DNA of 64,000 nucleotides from NCBI GenBank assembly GCA_011316305.1, contig SAUG01000002.1:310001-374000 (forward strand). The letters run 5' to 3'. A program made the position numbers and the translations under genes. Numbering within the stretch: position 1 is the stretch's first letter; each line of letters begins with the position of its first letter. Below the pieces are notes generated by a model. That model was not told the DNA's origin. It made no database searches and saw only the letters and a program-made list of their open reading frames with translations. This document shows positions 1-16,000 of the stretch, piece by piece. This DNA comes from Rusavskia elegans. Its lineage: Eukaryota; Ascomycota; Lecanoromycetes; Teloschistales; Teloschistaceae.

Positions 1-938
1 GGCAAAAGGTACGCTAACGCTTCTGGTATCTAGTTAAATAGAAAGGCTATAGGCCGTAATATAATAGTTAATATAAATTATAAGATTTAATATACTATAT
101 AGATTTTATTAACGAATATAATAAAAATTTTTCTTTTTTATCTGGATTTTATTATTAGAAATAATTTAATTATATTCTAGCGGTATTATAGTAACCGGAG
201 CTTTAAATATTCGTACCGCTAGTAGACTCTCTATATTATTCCGAACTAAAGTTAAAACGTTTATAAATTATTATATCTCGCCGGCGTTTTATATATTCGA
301 TCTGGTATAATTATATCTCTTTTTATATTCGGTAAAATACTACTACTATCTATGAGAATCTAATTCGAAGATTCTATTACCAGACGCTATAGTATAGTAA
401 TAGTACGTACCGCCTTTATTTAAACGATAAAAAAATTAGTTCGGCTATTTTATTAGCCGTTTTTTATTATTTAGAGGCTTTAGTATAGGCCGATTTCGAT
501 TTCTAATAGTACTATTTTCTTTTTAACCTTTTTAACGCCTTTATTTTTAACGTTTTTAAAGTTTTTAAATATTTAATACGAGCGTATCGAGGATAATACT
601 ATTTTTTCGTTTTATAGTATTTATTATAAACTATTTAAACTGTCTAAAACTTATATAAAGTTTAGTAGATATAGAAATACTGGCCGATAGTACCGGCTGA
701 CTAATACGCTGACTAAACCCCGTTAACCGCGGTTTATTAATCCTGCGAGATTCGTTACCTAATTAGATTTAGCGTTCAGCCTAATTCGTTTATTTATAGA
801 TAAACTTTCCATCTATATAAAAAAAAAAAAAGCTATTATTATCATTTTAAATAGATCTATAACAGATTTCAACGATCAAAATAAATTCGTATTATAAAAT
901 TTTTTTTTAGATAAAATCCGAATTAATAAAAGAATTTT

Positions 939-1463
939 ATCACTAAAAATATCGACCCCGTTTAAAATTAATTGAATAGATTTAAACTGATAAACGAATC
1001 TGATTCTATATTCTATTTAACGCGTTATAAAAGTGTTTATAAGCAAGATTTCTATTTATAAATAAAATTTTAGTTTATAAACGTTTATAAACGTCCTAAA
1101 CGATTTAAACGAATTTTAAATTTTTTAAAAAAAATCTTTTAAAAACTCTAAATTCTTCTATCTAATAGAGCTACTAATATCCTATAAAATACCTATATTA
1201 ATAAACTTTTAATATAGATTTTAAAAATTTTATTTATAGAACGCTAGTATTACTAGTTTCTAAACTAGAAACTTCCTATTATTAAATAGGAACTAACGGA
1301 TACTAAATTTTAAAAAATTAAATTTTAAAATTCTAGATATAGATAAAATAGTCGTTTTTAGAATATATCCAAATTTTTCTATTTATTAAATAAAATAATT
1401 TTATTTAAATCGGTTTAAACCGATTTAATCGATTTTAAACGTTTTTTTTATTTTAAAATACTA
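939..1463 (+). repeat. Left arm of large inverted repeat
   Basis: Read as reverse complement, 2405-2871 follows this stretch over its whole length. Both arms start with ATCACTAAAA followed by a match through ATCGACCCCG. The left arm is longer by about 55 bases because of one insertion near 1030-1085. Most differences are C/T or G/A transitions that make the left arm more AT-rich, as expected from RIP. The arrangement fits terminal inverted repeats of a fold-back or non-autonomous DNA transposon, or two solo LTRs in opposite orientation. No target-site duplication is obvious at 938/2872. Confidence 0.75.
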
Positions 1464-1570
1464 TAAACGGATTGTATATTTACTGATATTTACAGAGAAA
1501 TATATTTGGAATTATCGTATCTATCGAACGCGCCGCGAGATAGAGAAAGTGGAAATATTTCGACGCGTAC

Positions 1571-1680
1571 GTATAGATTGGCCGTCGGATCGGATTTCGA
1601 ATCCGGATTAATTTAAAAATAGTCAATCCGATCCGATCCGATCGGATTTCGAATTCTAAATCGTAATCCGATCCGATCCG
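1571..1680. repeat. GATCC/GGATC short tandem repeats
   Basis: The stretch carries several runs of a five-base unit (ATCCG and its complement) around 1585-1600, 1623-1645 and 1664-1680, interspersed with GGATTTCGAAT. The same motif returns near 1885-1930. The units are CpG-rich and stand out from the AT-rich surroundings. They lie inside the spacer between the two inverted arms. No function can be assigned. Confidence 0.5.
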
Positions 1681-1975
1681 CTAAAACTGCCAAGTTCTAA
1701 TATAAAAATATAAAGCTAATATAATTTTTATACGAATATATTAAAAATATTCCAAATTTTAATTAATTAACTACGCTAGCTAGAAATTTAGAGAATTTGT
1801 AATAAAACTAAATATATTATCTCGATATATTATCTATATTAAAATATTAAAATAGAAATATATTAAATATACAATTTAATCGGGTCGGATCCGAATCGAA
1901 TTACTAAAATCGGATCGAATATCCGACGGTTCAATAAAAACGTATCAGTAAATATATAACTCGCTTATAATATTT

Positions 1976-2095
1976 TAAAGGCCTGGTGGCGCAGCGGCAA
2001 CGCTGCGTGACCGGGAGGCCTAGCGAATCCAGCGCTTTTCGGAGTTAGCGGAATTAATCTAACGGGTCGGAGGTTCGAATCCCTCGAAAACTAAC
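1976..2095 (+). other. tRNA-like (SINE-head-like) patch inside RIP island
   Basis: A patch of about 115 bases with normal GC sits in AT-rich DNA. It has an A-box-like motif (TGGCGCAGCGG) near 1986 and a B-box match (GGTTCGAATCC) near 2071, the two internal promoter elements of RNA polymerase III. The T arm (GGAGG, loop TTCGAAT, CCCTC) pairs imperfectly. No 7-bp acceptor stem can be formed and no clear anticodon arm is present. It is therefore better read as a decayed tRNA or the tRNA-derived head of a SINE than as a working tRNA gene. Its intact CpA sites suggest that it arrived after RIP or escaped it. Confidence 0.35.
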
Positions 2096-2404
2096 TAATA
2101 CTTAAGTTTTTTCTATCGATTCTAATCGATTTTTATATAAAGTTTTTATATAAAGTACTTATATAATATATCATCTCGGTCTAGCCCGATCGATCGGAGT
2201 AAATAAGTTAATTAAAATTAAATAGATTACGGTTTCCCTCTGGGTTTTAGTCTAGATCTAGCTCCTTCGGGAGTTTTAAATTCGAATTTTCGGTAAAATA
2301 TTTGAATATTAAAATAATTGCGTAATCTAATCGAATTAGCGCCTTTAATATTAGATTCGTAAAAGATTAAAATCAAAATCCGAATAATTAATCGTATATA
2401 TAAA

Positions 2405-2871
2405 TAATATTTTAAAATAAAAAAAGCATTTAAAATCGATTAAATCGGTTTAAATAAAATCATTTTATTTAATAAATAGAAAAATTTAGATATATTCTAA
2501 AAATATCTACTTTATCTATATTTATAATTTTAAAATTAAATTTTTTAAAATTTAGTATCCGTTAGTTCTCGTTTAATAATAGGAAGCTTCTAGTTTAGAA
2601 ACTAGTAATATTAGTATTCTATAAATAAAATTATTAAAATCTAAACTAAAAGTTTACTAATATAAATACTTTATAGAATACTACTAGTCCTACTTGATAG
2701 AAGGATTTAGAATTTTTAAAAGATTTTTTTTAAAAATTTTAAAACTCGTTTAAAGCGTTCAGGACGTTTATAAACGCTTTTATAACGCGCTAGGCAGAAT
2801 ATAGGATCAGATCCGCTCACCAGCTCAGACCTGCTCAATTAACTCTGAGCGGGGTCGATACTTTTAGTGAT
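2405..2871 (-). repeat. Right arm of large inverted repeat
   Basis: Partner of 939-1463 in reverse orientation. Its outer end (about 2790-2871) keeps CpA and TpG sites that are TpA in the left arm, so this arm is the better guide to the unmutated sequence. The spacer between the arms is about 0.94 kb and holds the tRNA-like patch and the ATCCG repeats, but no transposase frame. Confidence 0.75.
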
Positions 2872-3088
2872 GACCCGACCCGAAACGGCCAGTCTACGTA
2901 CGTGTAAAGTGTTTATATCCGAATCCCGAGATAGCGAGCCGCCGCTCGCGATTAATCAGATTGGGGTAATTGATTGTTTACCTCAATCTTTCTACATCTT
3001 TACAGTCTCGCAAGATAGATTCTACGATTATCGATTCTTATATTCGTTTCCTTGAAGGAACTTTATGATAATTCGATAGCTCTGAATA

Positions 3089-5181
3089 ATGAACGACAGC
3101 AGTCATTCGAATTCCGATGGTAGCAGTGATACAGATTACGATTTCGATCAAAACACGGTAAATCTTATTTCATCGCGAGTAAATATACGAAAATAACCTG
3201 TTAATTATATATTAGAATGATTAAAATCCGCTTACCAACAATGCTCGCGATCTTACGATTAAAACAGCGACAAACATTCCTTCTTACGAAGAATTGTACA
3301 ACAAAGCTCGAGAGCTCTGGCCTACAGGCAAGCCGTCGTTCGCTCAAGAACGACGTGGTATCGAAGATGGAGATTTGAAAGAAGTTGTATTAGCCGAGCC
3401 TGATGGCAAAAACCCCGGCTCGTCTCCCTCAGTTCCACGCCCCGTTTTGACGGCTACACGATGGGATGCCAAATACTTCCTTTGGGTCTTGGATCGAGGG
3501 GCCGAAAAGTTCATCATGAAAGCCGTCGGAGGAACCTTTCGTCGATGCCTTGGTATTGATGGCAAAAAGAAAGCGCTCTACGAAAAGAGAAATTTCGCGT
3601 GGCCAGTCCCCGACCCACCGCATCCCGACCCACCGCCACGACGTCCTACTAGCCCGATTATCCCCGATTCGGACCCTGGCGTACCTGAGCATTTCATGAA
3701 TCGAAGTCCTTTCCAATACCATGAAACAGAACTTCCGATCATGCCGAGAAAAGGGCAACGCAGTCATGAGCTCAGTGGTGATTCTATTCCTGCGGCCCTT
3801 GTTCCCGTCCCGCAGACTTCATCGATCCAAGATACGATACAACAGGATCGAGCCTACTATGAGAGCCGAAATGGATGGCCACCCTATGTTAAGAGAGCTT
3901 CAAAACATCGTAAATTTGTAGCCGTCCTCGCAGACCAAGATGAAAACCCCAGCGAACATCAAATCCACGTCGAGGCTCGACAATGGAGCGATGGACATCA
4001 ATATTGGATCGCTAATATCCATGGTCAGGAGCGAATAGTGAACCTGTGCAGTGGTGGACACGGCGGCTGGAGATTACGGCTATGGTTGGGCCATGAAGAG
4101 CATGAGCAAGGAAGGCGCGGAGCGGTTATTGGATTCCCACCTCCAGAAACAGAAGGAGAGCTCTCTGGACAGTCTACAAAACGATCGTCAGAAGACTGTC
4201 CAGGTCAGTCAACAATCTCTTCCTGCACATTTGCCTTTTGCCATACTTACCTTCTTTCAGTCGCTCGAAGCACAAGGCAACGGACTATACCGCCTAGAGC
4301 ACACAAGTTAGCACGTCGCTCGGAACCCTTGACTCGGCGACATGAGGATACGCTCTCAACAACGGCCTCAGCGCCTAATACACGTCAGCAGAGCCAAATT
4401 GGGCCAACTTCCGCGCAGGTAGAAAACAAAATCCGCACGTCGAAAGGTCGATTTCGTAAGAGCACCGGTACCACTGGCTACAAATCCTCGCCCGTGGTTG
4501 GGCAAACGCTATCAGATACCGTTACAGGGCCTCCTGCTCTCGCTCCCACAGATATCGGCAACGAAGGCTCAGCGTATTCCCTCCCTCCACCCAACAAACG
4601 CAGTCAGGCCGTCAGAGCCTGCGACTCGTGTCGCAAACACCGCTCCAAATGCGATAATAACCAGCCTTGCTTCAGCTGCCGGCACCGAGGTGAACACTGT
4701 AGCAACTCCGGCCCCTCCGAAGTACCGACAATACCCTCGGCAATCCGATCAGCGGGTGAGCTATCCGCCATCGAATCCACCGATAATTCTGTTCCTTCAG
4801 CCAACGCCTTAACAAACGCGGGACCGTTGCCAGAGGAGCTACTTGTAAGTATCGTTCCTTTGTCAACATGCAGAGCCTGACGTAGAGTAGCGGCAGAAAC
4901 GTGAGATCCAGCGCAAGCAACTACTTGTCGTAAGTCCCTTTCATATAGACGTTGCTAGGTCGCTAATAAAGTTCTGTATCAGGAGAGCAAACTTGTATCT
5001 CTTGTAAGTCTCTTTCATGTTAGCGTGGCTAGGTCGCTAATAAAGTTCTGTATCAGGACCGCAAGCTTCTATCTCTTGTAAGTCTCTTTCATGTTGGCGT
5101 TGCTAGGTTGCTGATACAGGGTTTTTCCAGGACATGGAGGACATCGATGATCAACTGAAAAAGGCAGGGGTGGTGGTCTAA
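3089..5181 (+). CDS. Zn2Cys6-motif protein with heptad-microexon coiled-coil tail; possibly decaying
   Basis: Open frame from 3225 to 4844, then four introns with exact phase closure: exons 4897-4929, 4983-5003, 5057-5077 and 5131-5181 (stop). A Zn(II)2Cys6 binuclear cluster, the fungal DNA-binding fold, begins ACDSCRKHRSKC at about 4615 and is complete with six cysteines. Unusually it sits late in the protein and is followed directly by a coil-like tail built of seven-residue exons. The start is uncertain. An ATG at 3089 opens 23 acidic, Ser-rich codons up to a donor at 3158, but the natural downstream frame meets a TAA at 3222-3224 that looks like a RIP-type CAA-to-TAA change. Between about 4051 and 4203 a different frame reads better and ends in a good GTCAGT...TTTCAG intron (4204-4260), hinting at a frameshift. 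It may be a gene or a young pseudogene beside the RIP island. Confidence 0.65.
4909..5130 (+). repeat. 74-bp exon/intron unit in three tandem copies
   Basis: Three consecutive units (4909-4982, 4983-5056, 5057-5130), each exactly 74 bp. Each holds 21 exonic bases followed by a 53-base intron that starts GTAAGT and ends in CAG. The first two introns share the CGCTAATAAAG branch region and the TTCTGTATCAG end; the third has diverged and uses TTTTTCCAG. Each exon encodes one heptad (QRKQLLV, ESKLVSL, DRKLLSL). The unit length is not a multiple of three, but splicing leaves 21 bases, so copy number can change without breaking the frame. Confidence 0.85.
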
Positions 5182-6385
5182 AGCCGGTCTTCTCCCCGCA
5201 GCCGTCTCTGGGCAGGAACATTTAACGGTTCCATTTGATGGGAGGACATCTTGTCATGAAGCCACGTCCAGTATTTCTCTGGCACTTCGTGATCTTAGGT
5301 CTCGGAATTTCTTTTGCAAGATCATGTTTATTAAAGATTGGGGTTGCAGATGAGAGGGAACAAGGGAATCTTTAGAGACAGATGCAATTGATGTCTTTCC
5401 TAGTCTTGTGCTTTGTGATAAATTCTAGGTCGAGATCGAAAATCCCTCCCTTCTCGCAAGCCAACGACTCAAGGTTGCACTCTGCCTGCATGCTCCGTCT
5501 GACCCCTTGAGGCTGTTCAAGATGATACAGAAAGCGCTCACTGGCTTGGACCTGAAGATAGTGAGGACTCGAAGACCTGCACGCGGAGCTTGCTAGCTCT
5601 ACCGGCTTCTTCCCCTATCTAAGCGATTGACGATGGATTACTCCATACGGGAGGACTGGCAAGGGGTGGACGGATGGAAGGGTGCAAGAAAGGGTCGAGA
5701 ACAATACAAAAGAAGGAGGAAACCTGGGCCATGGAGGTATGTAACAGACTGCCGTGGGAAAGAGAGGAAGATGATCCGAAGATCGTAATAATGCTTCAGC
5801 AATGAAGTACCAGAGGAGCTAGCATGAGATTACCCAATGAAGCCTTGAATGGCGAGAAGTAATCTGAGTCACCTAATCACGAAATTCGTGATTGAGTGGT
5901 CATAGCAAGGAAAGTGATATGCCTGAGAAGTCGAGAAGACACCCAGGAAAGCCTTGAAAAGGGTCTTGTAACTCTCCACAGAAGGCATATGTCCCCCATG
6001 ACTTCATCTCCCTGTCCTGACGCAGCAGCGATTTCCGTGAGTGCTACAATCCAGGGCAAGACGTGACGGCCTAACGCCATCTAAGCCTACGTCGGACCGG
6101 ATTCTTGACATAACCCTCGACTCCCTGTTCTCGATCTATCGACTTTGAGCATACCCATAGCGGAGGCCGAGCTACCGGAGCCGAGTGCCCTTCCGATGTG
6201 CCGATTCATTGATGGCAATGAAGTGAATGCACGACACCAATTTGCTCGGAAGTGCGTGATCTTGTTTCCCTCCTCGCCCCTTGCTAGCACCTAGGACTTC
6301 ACAACTCTGGTTTTCACGCCCTGTGGAATTACGATGAGGGCCGTGAAGTTGTTCGTACAGTAGCCTTGTTCAAGTGACACTACAG
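5182..6385. other. Intergenic, no gene seen
   Basis: 1.2 kb of normal base composition downstream of the Zn2Cys6 gene. The short frames here are not supported by splice sites or natural-looking protein. It presumably holds the 3' end of the upstream gene and the promoter of the gene at 6386. Confidence 0.5.
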
Positions 6386-7610
6386 ATGGCTCGTACGAGG
6401 TGTCATTTGTGCCATGGGCCCAGTCACGGGGATCCGAATCTTCACCCTTGCAATGCGGCCGCCTTTTCGGATCTGCTTCTGGAAGAACGCCATCGTTACC
6501 AGAGCTCTCGACCTCCTTTTGTGCTGAATAATCGGTGTCGACCACTCCCAACTTCGAGAACGTTCCTGATCCAAGGTAATGAGGACGTTCCAGACACACC
6601 AATTGAGGTGAAAGTCGAAGACTGGAGCGAGCGTGACTTTTATTGCACCGCAGTTATTGGTGGCCAAAGAAAACTGCTAAAGAGGGTCAGTGACCGTGCA
6701 GGTCATCATGTTTTCGGCGAGTGGGACGACTATTCTCAATCTGCATGGCCAACGGTGGCCTACAGTGCTTCATCAGCGTCTTCAACGGCTTCATCAACTT
6801 CCGGAGTGCCGTCCGAAATGAGTACACCGGGTCTGTTGCTCCACTTTGAATTTTGAATAAGACTAATCGGCTATACAGGGGAGCACACTGGACCACCAAG
6901 CCGTGACTACGCGACTCCACCCAGTTCCGGGCGTTCATCACCTGAAGAAAAGTATTACCCACCAACCGTCGACAGTATTAAGCCGCGCGATGCATTCCCC
7001 CTTCGCCAGGAAGCATCCAGTGGCGGATTGTCTGGCAGCTCCAGCTCTAAAGGCTCGTCAGCCACCGAGCATCATCCACCAACCGTCGACAGGGTTAAGT
7101 GGCGCGATGCATTCCCCCCTCACCAGGAAACATCCAGTGGCGGATTATCTGGCAGTTCCAGCTCTAAAAGCTCGTCAGCCATCGACTATCATCCACCAAC
7201 CATCCGCAGTATCCACTCGCGGGATCCTTCTCCCTTTCAGCAGCAAGCCTCCAGTAAGCTGTCCAGCAGTCTCAGCGCTATGAGCTTGTCGTCCGTTCAT
7301 TGCGGGTCGTCGTCCTCTCTTCGAACCTTGACAGACCGTGATGATCTCGAGTATTGGCTGGTTAGTCAAGCCCTAAGCGTGATCGACGATAGCTGACCGA
7401 CCCTGCTTCAGCGACGAAAACGTGAGAATGCAGATGAGCGGCGATTCTTCGTGAAATTGAAGGTAAAACGGCTTCCAACCCCCAAGTCAAATACCTAGAG
7501 CCTACCCCTCGCAAGAGATAGACTGACTGTTCTTTCAGATGGAACAGCGGAAGATCAACCGTAGGATTCGGCGTCGTCAAGCGAGATTGCCGGGAGCAAG
7601 CAGCGATTAG
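6386..7610 (+). CDS. Ser-rich protein with 39-residue tandem repeats, unknown function
   Basis: Four exons with exact phase closure: 6386-6830, 6879-7360, 7412-7462 and 7539-7610, giving 349 residues. Introns are 48, 51 and 76 nt with AG acceptors; the first has a GACTAAT-like branch site. The N-terminus (MARTRCHLCHGPSHG) has a CxxC followed by a further His and Cys and could bind zinc. The middle holds two near-identical 39-residue repeats with the core RDAFP...SSGGLSGSSSSK, plus a decayed third copy. The end is strongly basic (RRKR, RRIRRRQ) and may be a nuclear signal. I do not recognise the family. Confidence 0.75.
6953..7300 (+). repeat. 117-bp coding tandem repeat (39 residues), 2 clear copies plus 1 degenerate
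   Basis: Copies start at 6953, 7070 and 7187 with a period of 117 bases. The first two are nearly identical (PPTVD...RDAFP...SSGGLSG). The third keeps PPT and the RD-SPFQQQASS start, then diverges. The period is a multiple of three, so expansion keeps the frame. Confidence 0.8.
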
Positions 7611-11628: not shown

Positions 11629-12207
11629 TCAAAAACCAGCAAACGCATTACCACATTCGACCGGAAGTGAAATTATTTTCCCTCTGGGGATATTCGTAGT
11701 AGGATCTGATCTTCTTCCTGGTCGCACTAATAATCTTTCCTTTTCGTCTTCCTTGAGACTCTTGAGGAATCGTACGTAAGGCGGTACGGCACTCCACCGA
11801 AGAAAAGGAATACCTGTGCCCGTTATATAATCACGAACGACTCTCTCTTTTCTCTCATCCGCCTTCTTTTCGAGTTGTAGTCAGCGAGCTAATACCCTTG
11901 ATGGTGCTGTTGCGTTGTCAGTATGTGACTGACGCTGTGTTTTCCGGGGTGGGGTGCTCATACCTCTTTCACGTGCCTCTAGAACGCGATTGGTATACTG
12001 TTGTGCTCGGTAAGGCTGGTGGTGGAGGAGATTGAGATTGTTGGAGGCTGAGAGGTTTGTGCGTGAGGATGTTAGGACGTCGATTGCCGTTTCGATAGGT
12101 AGGAGGGCGTGGCTGATTGTTGGAGACGAAGGGTGGGGACTTCGACTGACGTTTCGATAGGTAGGAGGGCGTGGATGATTAGATGGGGACGAAGGATATG
12201 ATTGCAT
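11629..12207 (-). CDS. Hypothetical protein, two-exon model
   Basis: On the minus strand an ATG at 12207 opens a frame to a TGA at 11883-11881. The same frame reopens and reads natural protein, including YITGTGIPFLRWS and RFLKSLKEDEKERLL, down to a stop at 11629. A phase-1 donor (GTATGA near 11964) and an AAAAG acceptor near 11847 remove the TGA with an intron of 117 nt that contains CTGAC. The splice choice is mine and uncertain. The frame is also open upstream to about 12535 without an ATG, so an earlier exon may exist. The N-terminal part carries degenerate SPSNH...PPT repeats. I do not recognise the family. Confidence 0.45.
12076..12195. repeat. 63-bp tandem repeat, two copies, with diverged relatives to about 12480
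   Basis: 12076-12132 and 12139-12195 are near-identical, offset by 63 bases (shared core CGTTTCGATAGGTAGGAGGG and a GACGAAGG end). Looser copies of GGAGGGCGTAGCTG...GGGAACGAAGG lie around 12420-12470. On the minus strand the repeat encodes the SPSNHPRPPTYRN / SHALLPIET-type segments. Confidence 0.6.
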
Positions 12208-13089: not shown

Positions 13090-16000
13090 TCATCGTCGAC
13101 GGCGGCCGGTGTCTTTCCGATCTTGAGGTGGTTCCCGCTGCCTTTCTCGTCTACGCTCCAAGTCTCTCTTTCGATCATGTGCACGTTCCGAGTTAGATAT
13201 CGTTTGTTTCGTCATCTCCGCTCGAATTCTTTGCTGATGAGCAAGCCGCTGCTTGGCTTGAGGTTGATGAGCTTGTTCTGTCTCTGTTCTCAGCTTTGAG
13301 GTTCTAGCTCTTCGTTCGCGTTCCTTTTCTTCTCGTGCAGCGGCGTTGCTGGCTCTTGAATCGTAGAGAGGGGGGTTTTCTTGGTCCATGGCGACTTCAG
13401 TGTTGGGTTGGTCCACCTGCGGTATTTGCTGCTGTTGCTGCTGCTGTAATTGTTGCTGGTGCTGGAAGGGTGGCTGCTGCTGCTGCTCTTGCTGCTCTTG
13501 CTGCTCTTGCTGCTCTTGCTGCTCTTGCTGCTCTTGCTGCTCTTGCTGCTCTTGCTGCTCTTGCTGCTCTTGCTGCTCTTGCTGCTCTTGCTGCTCTTGC
13601 TGCTCTTGCTGCTCTTGCTGCTCTTGCTGCTCTTGCTGCTCTTGCTGCTCTTGCTGCTCTTGCTGCTCTTGCTGCTCTTGCTGCTCTTGCTGCTCTTGCT
13701 GCTCTTGCTGCTCTTGCTGCTCTTGCTGCTCTTGCTGCTCTTGCTGCTCTTGCTGCTCTTGCTGCTCTTGCTGCTCTTGCTGCTCTTGCTGCTCTTGCTG
13801 CTCTTGCTGCTCTTGCTGCTCTTGCTGCTCTTGCTGCTCTTGCTGCTCTTGCTGCTCTTGCTGCTCTTGCTGCTCTTGCTGCTCTTGCTGCTCTTGCTGC
13901 TCTTGCTGCTCTTGCTGCTCTTGCTGCTCTTGCTGCTCTTGCTGCTCTTGCTGCTCTTGCTGCTCTTGCTGCTCTTGCTGCTCTTGCTGCTCTTGCTGCT
14001 CTTGCTGCTCTTGCTGCTCTTGCTGCTCTTGCTGCTCTTGCTGCTCTTGCTGCTCTTGCTGCTCTTGCTGCTCTTGCTGCTCTTGCTGCTCTTGCTGCTC
14101 TTGCTGCTCTTGCTGCTCTTGCTGCTCTTGCTGCTCTTGCTGCTCTTGCTGCTCTTGCTGCTGCTGCTGCTGCTGCATTTGTACTTGTTGCTGCTGCTGG
14201 AAGTACTGCCGCTGCTCATAAAATTGCTGCTGCTGCTCAAAGTGCAGATAGTGCTGATACTGCAGCTCCTCCGGCGAATACTGCTGCAGAAGCTCGGGCT
14301 CATCTCCCACATCACACATATCTTCGTCGGTATCCATAAAGTCTGCCATACTGTCCGCCGGCCCGACTGCGACTGGATCTTCATTGCTCGCATAACCGCT
14401 ATCGTACCCTTCATCGGACATGGTGATATTCCCGTCAGCGTCGACTTGAGTGGCGCTGCCGTCGTATGTAAACTCCATCTCATCTGATGGCAGAACGTCC
14501 ACAGGAGGTTGAAAATTAGCCTCGGGATAATGGAGGCTGCTCAGCGATGTCGTCGGCTCAGTAATCATACTTGTACCATGTACGAACTGCTGAGGCTCTT
14601 GTTGATTGGGCTGTGCAGGTGGTTCCTGCACAGGTATGGCTACCTCGATTTCCACGGCGTTGGCAACCGGTAGGAATGTTGGTCCGGGCGCAATTAATTG
14701 GGGCTGGTCTTCTCTTGGTGCAGAGAGAAGCTCCGGCAGAGATGCAGTTGATGGTTCTTGGACAGATGTGGCTACTTCGTTCTCCGTTACGTTGGCATCC
14801 GGTAGAGCTGTTGGTCCTGACGCAATTGGTTGCGGCTTCTCTTCTCTTGGTGCAGAGAGAACTTCCGGCAAAGGTGCAGTTGATGGTTCTTGGACAGATG
14901 TCGCTACTTGGTCCTCGTGTACGTTGGTACTTGGTAGATCTGTTGGTCCTGACGCCATTGGTTGCGGCTGCTCTTCTAGCGCTGGGGAGACATGCCCTGG
15001 CAAGGGTGCAGTTGATCTCGGATTCGTGTCTGACTCCAGGATACTCTCTTGCACAGGAACAGATGAATGGCCCTGTTCTCTGTCAGTCGCTGGAGCGATC
15101 TCCGCTTGAGGTGAGGGAATCGGCAATGACTGCGGCTCAGTACTCAAGCCTGGGCAAACTTCTGGTAGGGGCATCAAGGTTATACTCTGACCTGCGTCAA
15201 CTCCCGAGGCATTGTCACTGGTCAGAGGCGCCGTTTGTGCTCCCTGCTTTTTGAAGGGACACCTAGTCTTGCTGGAGCCGATACCAGAAGCGGCAGATTT
15301 CTGACCATGTCGTTCTCGGGCTGTCGGAGACTTCTTCGTTGCAGCCTTGTATGCTGGAAAGGAGGGTTTGGGCTTCCTCTTGCCCTCTGCGGACTCATGC
15401 CGCGGAGATGGCGGCACTGTGCCTGATGTCATAATCTCAGTCGGCTCTTCCGATGCATCAGGCATACAGGACTGAGCTGGCGCCGAGCTCAATGTAGTCG
15501 ACGGCAAAGGCGAAGGGACTGTAGGTGGCGCGTTGGACTCAGCTGGCTGCTGGTCCGCAGGTGTGATTACAGGCAAATCCCTCGTCTGTGAAACTGGAGT
15601 AGACGCAGTCGTTGGATCGTCTGAGCATGATAGAATGACGGCTTCTGGAGATGAGATGCTGGGTTGCTCCCGCTGCCTCCTGGCACTTTCCTTTGCGGTA
15701 CGCAATGCCCGTTTTATTGAGCTTCGTTCGCTGATGTCAAGCGAAATCTTGTTGGGAGGACTAGGAGGAGCATCGGTATCCAGAGGCAATTGGGATGGTA
15801 GGTATCTAACATCGTCCGGAGTGTCCGCAAGAGTGACATGCTTCTTTGGTTTCGAGCCATTCTTCAAACAAGATCTGAGTCCCGGGTTTGCGACTTGTGT
15901 GGCTGTTCGAATACAAAGAGCGGACAGCGATTTGGTCAACGTATCCACGAAAATGCAGCTTGACGGAACAGATAGCAATAACGACTCCAGTGCCGGAGTG

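Follow-up and report, generated by a model that had tools for sequence, protein, structure and literature searches.

The locus described here lies in the window (the whole 64,000-nt stretch of Rusavskia elegans DNA that was analysed) and comprises a putative Zn2Cys6 gene, encoded on the plus strand throughout, with a 74-bp tandem array at its 3' end. The upstream coding part (3225..4203) is an open frame with named relatives (P0002-P0006, at 41-50% identity over the best BLASTP alignments), and several genes of the same genome carry stretches similar to it. Pfam detected nothing beyond Zn_clus on the upstream-gene open frame, and a hand search for the gene start near 3089 gave no frame-keeping acceptor. 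The open frame is followed by a 57-nt intron (4204..4260, GTCAGT..CAG) that stays in frame whether spliced or unspliced; its residues are missing in the orthologue models, and P0001, which is an ORF, reads into it. The next exon (4261..4844) ends in EELL and contains the Zn2Cys6 cluster (about 4614-4718; PF00172, E 3.1e-8, 34 bits versus a cut-off of 21), with cysteines spaced by eye as CX2CX6CX5CX2CX6C. The domain ends ~126 nt upstream of the intron that opens at 4845.

The cluster is conserved in the close relative P0009, and Zn_clus in this protein was the only domain above cut-off when P0002, P0003, P0004, P0009 and P0010 were searched against Pfam. It is missing at one place in P0002, P0003, P0004 and P0010, models which align across the region, and P0005 and P0006 have no Pfam domain; a weak further match, the Hypoxylon protein P0007, covers the Zn cluster only. 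The Zn2Cys6 domain of the window gene may therefore be either a recent insertion or a segment spliced out in the other models. We rejected its interpretation as a retained intron here as the likely one: in-frame GT-AG pairs do exist from the GT at 4603, yet the donor GTCAGG is poor and no match to CTRAY, the branch-site consensus, was seen by eye.

Downstream of EELL the predicted gene is divided into short pieces. An ancestral phase-0 intron (4845..4890) would precede an ancestral short exon of 39 nt (4891..4929, RQKREIQRKQLLV), followed by the 53-nt intron of unit 1 (4930..4982), an extra 21-nt exon encoding ESKLVSL (4983..5003), the mosaic 53-nt intron of unit 2 (5004..5056), a further extra 21-nt exon encoding DRKLLSL (5057..5077), the 53-nt intron of unit 3 with its diverged 3' end (5078..5130), and the last exon (DMEDIDDQLKKAGVVV and the stop, 5131..5181), which is conserved in P0002, P0003, P0004 and P0010. 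The first-pass annotation had assigned complete splice signals to every unit, and we find the same: the four introns as drawn there (52, 53, 53 and 53 nt) are all GT..AG with GTAAGT donors, and a single CTRAY branch-like site occurs at position 34 of every 53-nt intron. The array junctions are phase 0. When exons 4897-4929, 4983-5003, 5057-5077 and 5131-5181 are joined to 4844 they form a single open frame to TAA at 5181, and the unspliced stretch 4840-5181 has stops in all three forward frames. This closure at 5181, taken earlier as support for the model, does hold for the spliced frame, but by itself it is weak evidence since ~41 stop-free codons are not rare, and the conserved ends in relatives are the stronger argument. 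That 74 is not divisible by three, also considered noteworthy, has no bearing on the frame, because intron length is irrelevant and only the 21 exonic nt count. Splicing of the array is supported by comparison with own-genome genes and orthologue models.

The short exon is probably 39 nt long, with its acceptor at 4890 (TAG, favoured by the relatives) rather than at the in-frame alternative 4896 (CAG). Acceptor 4890 gives a short exon of 13 residues, as in the three out of three readable orthologues, versus 11 residues for 4896, and it gives the start [RQ][RQ][KE]R that is shared with these three orthologues and with own-genome genes B, C and D, not A. Against this choice, it is 4896 whose distance from the branch-like site agrees with the one in the other three introns. 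The array had been read as three 21-nt exons, which stands for units 2 and 3, whereas unit 1 corresponds to the last 21 nt of an older exon of 33 or 39 nt. As unit 1 is the end of an older exon, the extras consist of two 21-nt exons and two introns, not three.

The array itself is made of three 74-bp copies in the same register (units 1, 2 and 3 at 4909-4982, 4983-5056 and 5057-5130, plus strand), as first described; array detection recovered them, and a spacing analysis gave the same 74-bp period, starting from 4910. In the register 4909-5130 the units differ by 16 (1-2), 15 (2-3) and 21 (1-3) mismatches per 74 sites, copies too divergent for an assembly stutter to be plausible. The repeat exceeds chance. 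In a survey of 294 kb of the same contig we found five arrays (seven rows) with a period of at least 40, among which only the 74-bp array combines an intron-like stretch with a residual exon divisible by 3 nt; the intron-plus-exon pattern also matched three other arrays, two of them out of frame (117 bp and 132 bp) and the third (62 bp) with its whole period covered and no exon left. At the DNA level, own-genome searches (44.2-Mb assembly, 217 contigs) of a type that skips very common words did not reveal the array a second time, and with 4930-5130 as query they returned only the query itself at E <= 10. Introner-like elements are near-identical introns dispersed over many genes, and the self-only match, in a search of this type, speaks against such an element. 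DNA relatives of the locus are absent from the phage collection, as expected for a fungus.

Other repeats were observed in the window. Positions 13473-14171 hold about 78 copies of the 9-bp unit GCTGCTCTT, 99% alike, and three frames are stop-free over 13430-14250, among them a minus-strand frame reading (EQQ)n and a plus-strand frame reading (AAL)n. A 132-bp repeat (14658-15016, 2.7 copies) has stop-free frames on both strands and is perhaps coding. At 12075-12195 lies a 62-bp tandem repeat (1.9 copies, 88% matches) whose period is not a multiple of three, with one minus-strand frame stop-free.

The gene has related neighbours in its own genome, three upstream on the same contig (genes A, B and C) and one downstream within the window (gene D). 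All four show, at the DNA level, a phase-0 intron, a single short exon, a second phase-0 intron and a last exon, with short exons of 36, 39, 45 and 51 nt (for B and D the frames come from a manual reading of ORF translations); in gene D this unexpanded 3' end, with its 51-nt exon, lies at 7361..7610 on the plus strand. Since genes A-D all end in one short exon between phase-0 introns, the unexpanded layout is probably that of the family. Gene A is distant (E 5e-5), and the kinship of gene D is weak, resting on a single tblastn match to P0006 (E 8e-4) against a small local database; D was found only through this local tblastn, and as a query in the own-genome search it returned only itself. The three own-genome protein searches returned the same-contig cluster and one weak Zn-cluster match on contig C162 (E 4.6e-4). 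The five apparently related genes occupy G000:C101:295580-317610 (L009, L010 and window 3225-7610), and an AT-rich island divides this cluster, extending into window 1-3000 (GC 0.25-0.30; in L010 from about 2800 by eye). The open frame of gene D also contains a 117-bp tandem repeat (window 6959-7255, 2.5 copies, 39 residues more per unit), an adjoining plain coding repeat.

Close relatives of the protein that carry a name belong to Xanthoria, Xanthocarpia and Xanthomendoza, which are lichen fungi of the family Teloschistaceae. Two of the protein searches scored the 7998 candidates richest in shared words, and further orthologues may exist; X. parietina was missed by these two and came from another search. 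At least nine orthologous entries were found (P0001-P0006 and P0008-P0010, with P0001 and P0009 possibly fragments of the same gene). The tail is readable in three of the nine, with putative exon borders (hyphens below) placed by length and likeness. The gene models of X. parietina (P0010: EELL-QRKRDTYRKLLTL-DMEDIDAQLKKAG, last exon opening DMEDI) and Xanthocarpia lactea (P0004: VELL-RQKRDFQRKLLLL-EMQCIDDQLKEAG, last exon opening EMQCI) have no extra heptad, that of Xanthoria sp. 1 has one (P0002: EELR-QRKREIQRKQILL-DRKLLSL-DMEEIDDQLKKAG, last exon opening DMEEI), and the window gene has two (EELL-RQKREIQRKQLLV-ESKLVSL-DRKLLSL-DMEDIDDQLKKAG). ESKLVSL is thus missing in the three readable models, and the single extra heptad of Xanthoria sp. 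1 has the same seven residues as the second one here. The remaining entries end before the tail or lack it (P0001, P0005, P0008, P0009) or have diverged (P0006), and the model of Xanthocarpia ochracea (P0003) joins EELL directly to DMHDI, omitting even the ancestral short exon. Gene models can miss 21-nt exons, and that the orthologue copy numbers come from such models counts against the 0-1-2 series. The first-pass annotation had proposed copy number in relatives as a check on its reading, and numbers of 0, 0 and 1 with an intact frame are indeed present, in protein models only and in three of nine entries. In a gene tree of nine rows, the window gene pairs with P0001 (100/100; 95% identical over 296 columns), and this pair is sister, with moderate support (85/85), to Xanthoria, a clade (100/99) that holds Xanthoria sp. 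1 and, grouped with each other (100/98), X. aureola and X. parietina. Outside lie the two Xanthocarpia together with P0008 (100/99), while Xanthomendoza sits on a long branch.

The three units form a mosaic. Among 26 informative sites, 10 unite units 1 and 2, 11 unite units 2 and 3, and 5 unite units 1 and 3. Eight of the first 10 fall in the intron's last 21 nt, whereas all 11 sites uniting units 2 and 3, as well as the five uniting units 1 and 3, are confined to the exon and the 5'-most 32 nt of the intron. A permutation test over the best single split, treating sites as independent, gives p = 6e-5. Units 1 and 2 are identical over the last 21 nt of the intron (21/21), the 5' part of the unit 2 intron is more like that of unit 3 (29/32), and the 3' end of the unit 3 intron matches those of units 1 and 2 at 13/21 sites. 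The 74-nt stretches closest to their own copy 74 nt downstream start at 4950-4961, with 6/74 mismatches, the minimum over all starts, and the split according to a mid-intron model leaves 7/74. The last duplication thus apparently ran from mid-intron to mid-intron, its two copies spanning 4950..5109 on the plus strand with a breakpoint placed to about 12 nt. The exons of units 2 and 3 differ at 4/21 sites and the introns within this last duplication at 3/53 (p = 0.095); such an excess of exonic over intronic divergence runs opposite to strong coding constraint, on few sites and without reaching significance. DRKLLSL opens with GAC, which is the first codon of the last exon and not the CAG of unit 1, and the CGCAAGC... 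that follows looks like a copy of the end of the short exon.

We therefore favour, with a probability of about 0.8, a growth of the predicted spliced tail in two steps, an exon duplication followed by a mid-intron duplication. At the ancestral end one short exon, with a phase-0 intron on either side, would have preceded the last exon, and together they would have encoded a C-terminal helix. In the first step, a 74-bp tandem duplication would have taken ~18 nt of the short-exon end, the 53-nt intron and GAC, producing the first 21-nt exon, DRKLLSL; this step requires breakpoints in exons, as DRKLLSL starts with GAC and continues as a copy of the short-exon end. In the second step, which the mosaic supports, misaligned recombination or slippage between the two similar introns would have copied the 3' half of an intron, the 21-nt exon and the 5' half of an intron, adding ESKLVSL and another intron. 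With breakpoints inside introns, this second step could not harm the frame. Splicing would then join 13 + 7 + 7 residues ahead of DMEDI, with the helix longer by about two turns per unit. Tracing the mosaic back one step leads to an ancestor with one DRKLLSL-type extra exon, which matches the Xanthoria sp. 1 model. The array had been presented as a case of intron gain by tandem duplication; exon and intron do appear to have been copied, with seven residues each and the frame kept, but an existing intron was multiplied and none was created, two processes which are kept distinct in the literature (going by the accessible text of PMC4974935).

The units were also said to add coiled-coil heptads. 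A Zn2Cys6 cluster is typically followed by a dimerising coiled coil, and a coiled coil in the spliced tail is plausible: the leucines at codons 4 and 7 of both ESKLVSL and DRKLLSL suit one, and QRKQLLV of unit 1 has Q at codon 4. In its best a/d register, the spliced tail has 8/13 hydrophobic residues versus 9/30 elsewhere, and a continuous heptad pattern does not rise above shuffles (p = 0.22), so that coiled-coil heptads are not supported in the form proposed; periodicity was likewise not significant in seven of the eight tails analysed, gene A giving p = 0.046. The description of exactly one heptad per unit is correct for length, with seven residues each, but it reflects one or two events only, and a multiple of seven codons among frame-keeping lengths would arise by chance in an estimated ~1/7 of cases. 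The tail of P0002 is modelled as a single 36-residue helix (residues 446-481, block pLDDT 61-84) in a structure model of low overall quality (mean 53, 7 sequences), for a protein lacking the Zn2Cys6 cluster. The extra units thus likely lengthen a predicted C-terminal helix. The same model has two strand-rich segments with no Pfam name.

Several other scenarios were weighed against the two-step growth. In one of them, which we regard as very improbable, the gene is unspliced here and terminates with the in-frame stop at 4878-4880, which would leave the array downstream as a non-coding minisatellite. The open frame does terminate there, and P0009, the open frame of the close relative, ends in a matching stretch; P0009, however, continues directly from EELL just as an unspliced frame would, orthologue models retain the downstream last exon as conserved protein, and phase-0 junctions occur at the corresponding position of the neighbouring genes, the four donors here being GTAAGT. 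Unlikely, to a lesser degree, is a plain unit-wise duplication in which 4909-4982 was copied twice and the mosaic arose later by gene conversion between units. Such a duplication gives the same unit length, and gene conversion between tandem repeats is common and could produce the mosaic too. Yet the best duplication segment starts mid-intron, with its 6 mismatches against 15, 16 and 21 for whole units, and the GAC that opens DRKLLSL points to the last exon rather than to unit 1.

In the gene tree, Xanthoria sp. 1 with its one unit falls into a clade with X. parietina, which has none, next to the window gene, which has two. This requires either a loss or a second independent gain, and the motif KREIQRKQ, present in the short exon of both expanded genes and in neither zero-unit gene, leans towards a single gain and one loss. 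The same two observations would fit an older expanded state, with X. parietina having lost its unit by contraction and the array flickering between copy numbers. We hold this to be a real possibility, if below even odds: Xanthocarpia lactea and the four own-genome genes are all at zero, which makes zero the likely ancestral state of the family, and the fork joining the window gene to Xanthoria is the moderately supported one. Far less probable, in our view, is that copy number has been selected, with each unit extending a coiled coil for dimerisation next to the Zn2Cys6 domain and thereby altering DNA-site spacing. Each extra unit is seven residues long and has leucine at its codons 4 and 7, comparable to the hydrophobic positions of chicken BG (in the part of PMC5938342 available), and the tail is modelled as a single helix, which would be consistent with this scenario. 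Conversely, the heptad periodicity is not significant, a single event accounts for the length of seven, and the Zn2Cys6 domain, besides ending well before the intron, is missing from four other models aligning there. That unit number tunes the length of the coil, as had been suggested, implies selection, for which we found no evidence.

The array in the window looks real, but its growth by copying exon and intron together is an already known way for genes to grow. The closest parallel is CNN00420 of Cryptococcus neoformans, where introns were gained through expansion of an intron-containing repeat (Sharpton et al., 2008, PMC2395259). According to the accessible text of that paper, the repeat of ~107 nt comprises exon ends and a full intron, its number varies between strains, the intron copies are near-identical, the introns have EST support and the strains were resequenced. 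Here too a fungal repeat unit holds a complete intron with exon ends (a 53-nt GT..AG intron and 21 exonic nt). Unit number may differ as well, with 0, 0 and 1 versus 2 in the gene models of three of nine orthologous entries. The last intron of CNN00420, intron 6, has additional 3' sequence according to the same text, and the 3' end of the last intron differs here as well. In contrast to CNN00420, the exonic part of our unit is exactly 21 nt, the units are more diverged (53-59 of 74 sites alike in the register 4909-5130) and a mid-intron breakpoint is suggested; the EST and resequencing data are particular to CNN00420.

A second parallel is found in the tails of chicken BG proteins (butyrophilin family), which are encoded by many 21-nt exons of one heptad each, with hydrophobic residues mostly at codons 4 and 7 and an exon number that varies between genes and haplotypes (PMC5938342, as far as its available text goes). 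The extras of the window gene are likewise 21-nt exons of seven residues with hydrophobic codons 4 and 7. According to the same source, there are 27 to 37 such exons in the BG genes it names versus two extra ones here, in an unrelated protein; BG exons split their first codon, whereas the introns of the window gene are phase 0 and its only Pfam match is Zn_clus, and BG comes with transcript data. By analogy, the array may work like the chicken BG heptad exons without being a member of that family. Tandem internal duplication of whole introns is also described for TOUCH3 of Arabidopsis (Knowles and McLysaght, as reported in the accessible portions of PMC4974935 and PMC2395259), where an existing intron was similarly multiplied with exon on both sides, in a different gene and kingdom. 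In the Rogers model, as outlined in the available text of PMC4974935, duplication of an AGGT-containing exon segment makes a new intron from exonic sequence and leaves the peptide unchanged; tandem duplication raises intron number there as it would here, but the introns of the window appear to be copies of an existing intron and the protein would grow by seven residues per copy. Tandem repeats at exon-intron borders alter human genes too (PMC2812944, in the part available). Among the papers listed in the literature searched, which leaves out most subscription papers, none describes an array of this kind from a lichen fungus.

If the 0-1-2 unit series holds, it is a compact natural one in which the origin of both introns and both heptads could be dated and the breakpoints read. 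The mosaic suggests a rule, by which after a first duplication of a unit later gains can fall in introns and be harmless to the frame, and if this rule is true, arrays of exons and introns can ratchet. A bolder and rather doubtful extension would be that the array acts as an unstable, frame-proof length dial, in which crossovers between near-identical introns gain or lose heptad exons, so that the number of units (0, 1, 2 or more) would vary among species, perhaps also among isolates, and with it the length of a helix at the end of a DNA-binding protein, independently of chicken BG. The array would offer a fungal counterpart of the chicken BG heptad exons.
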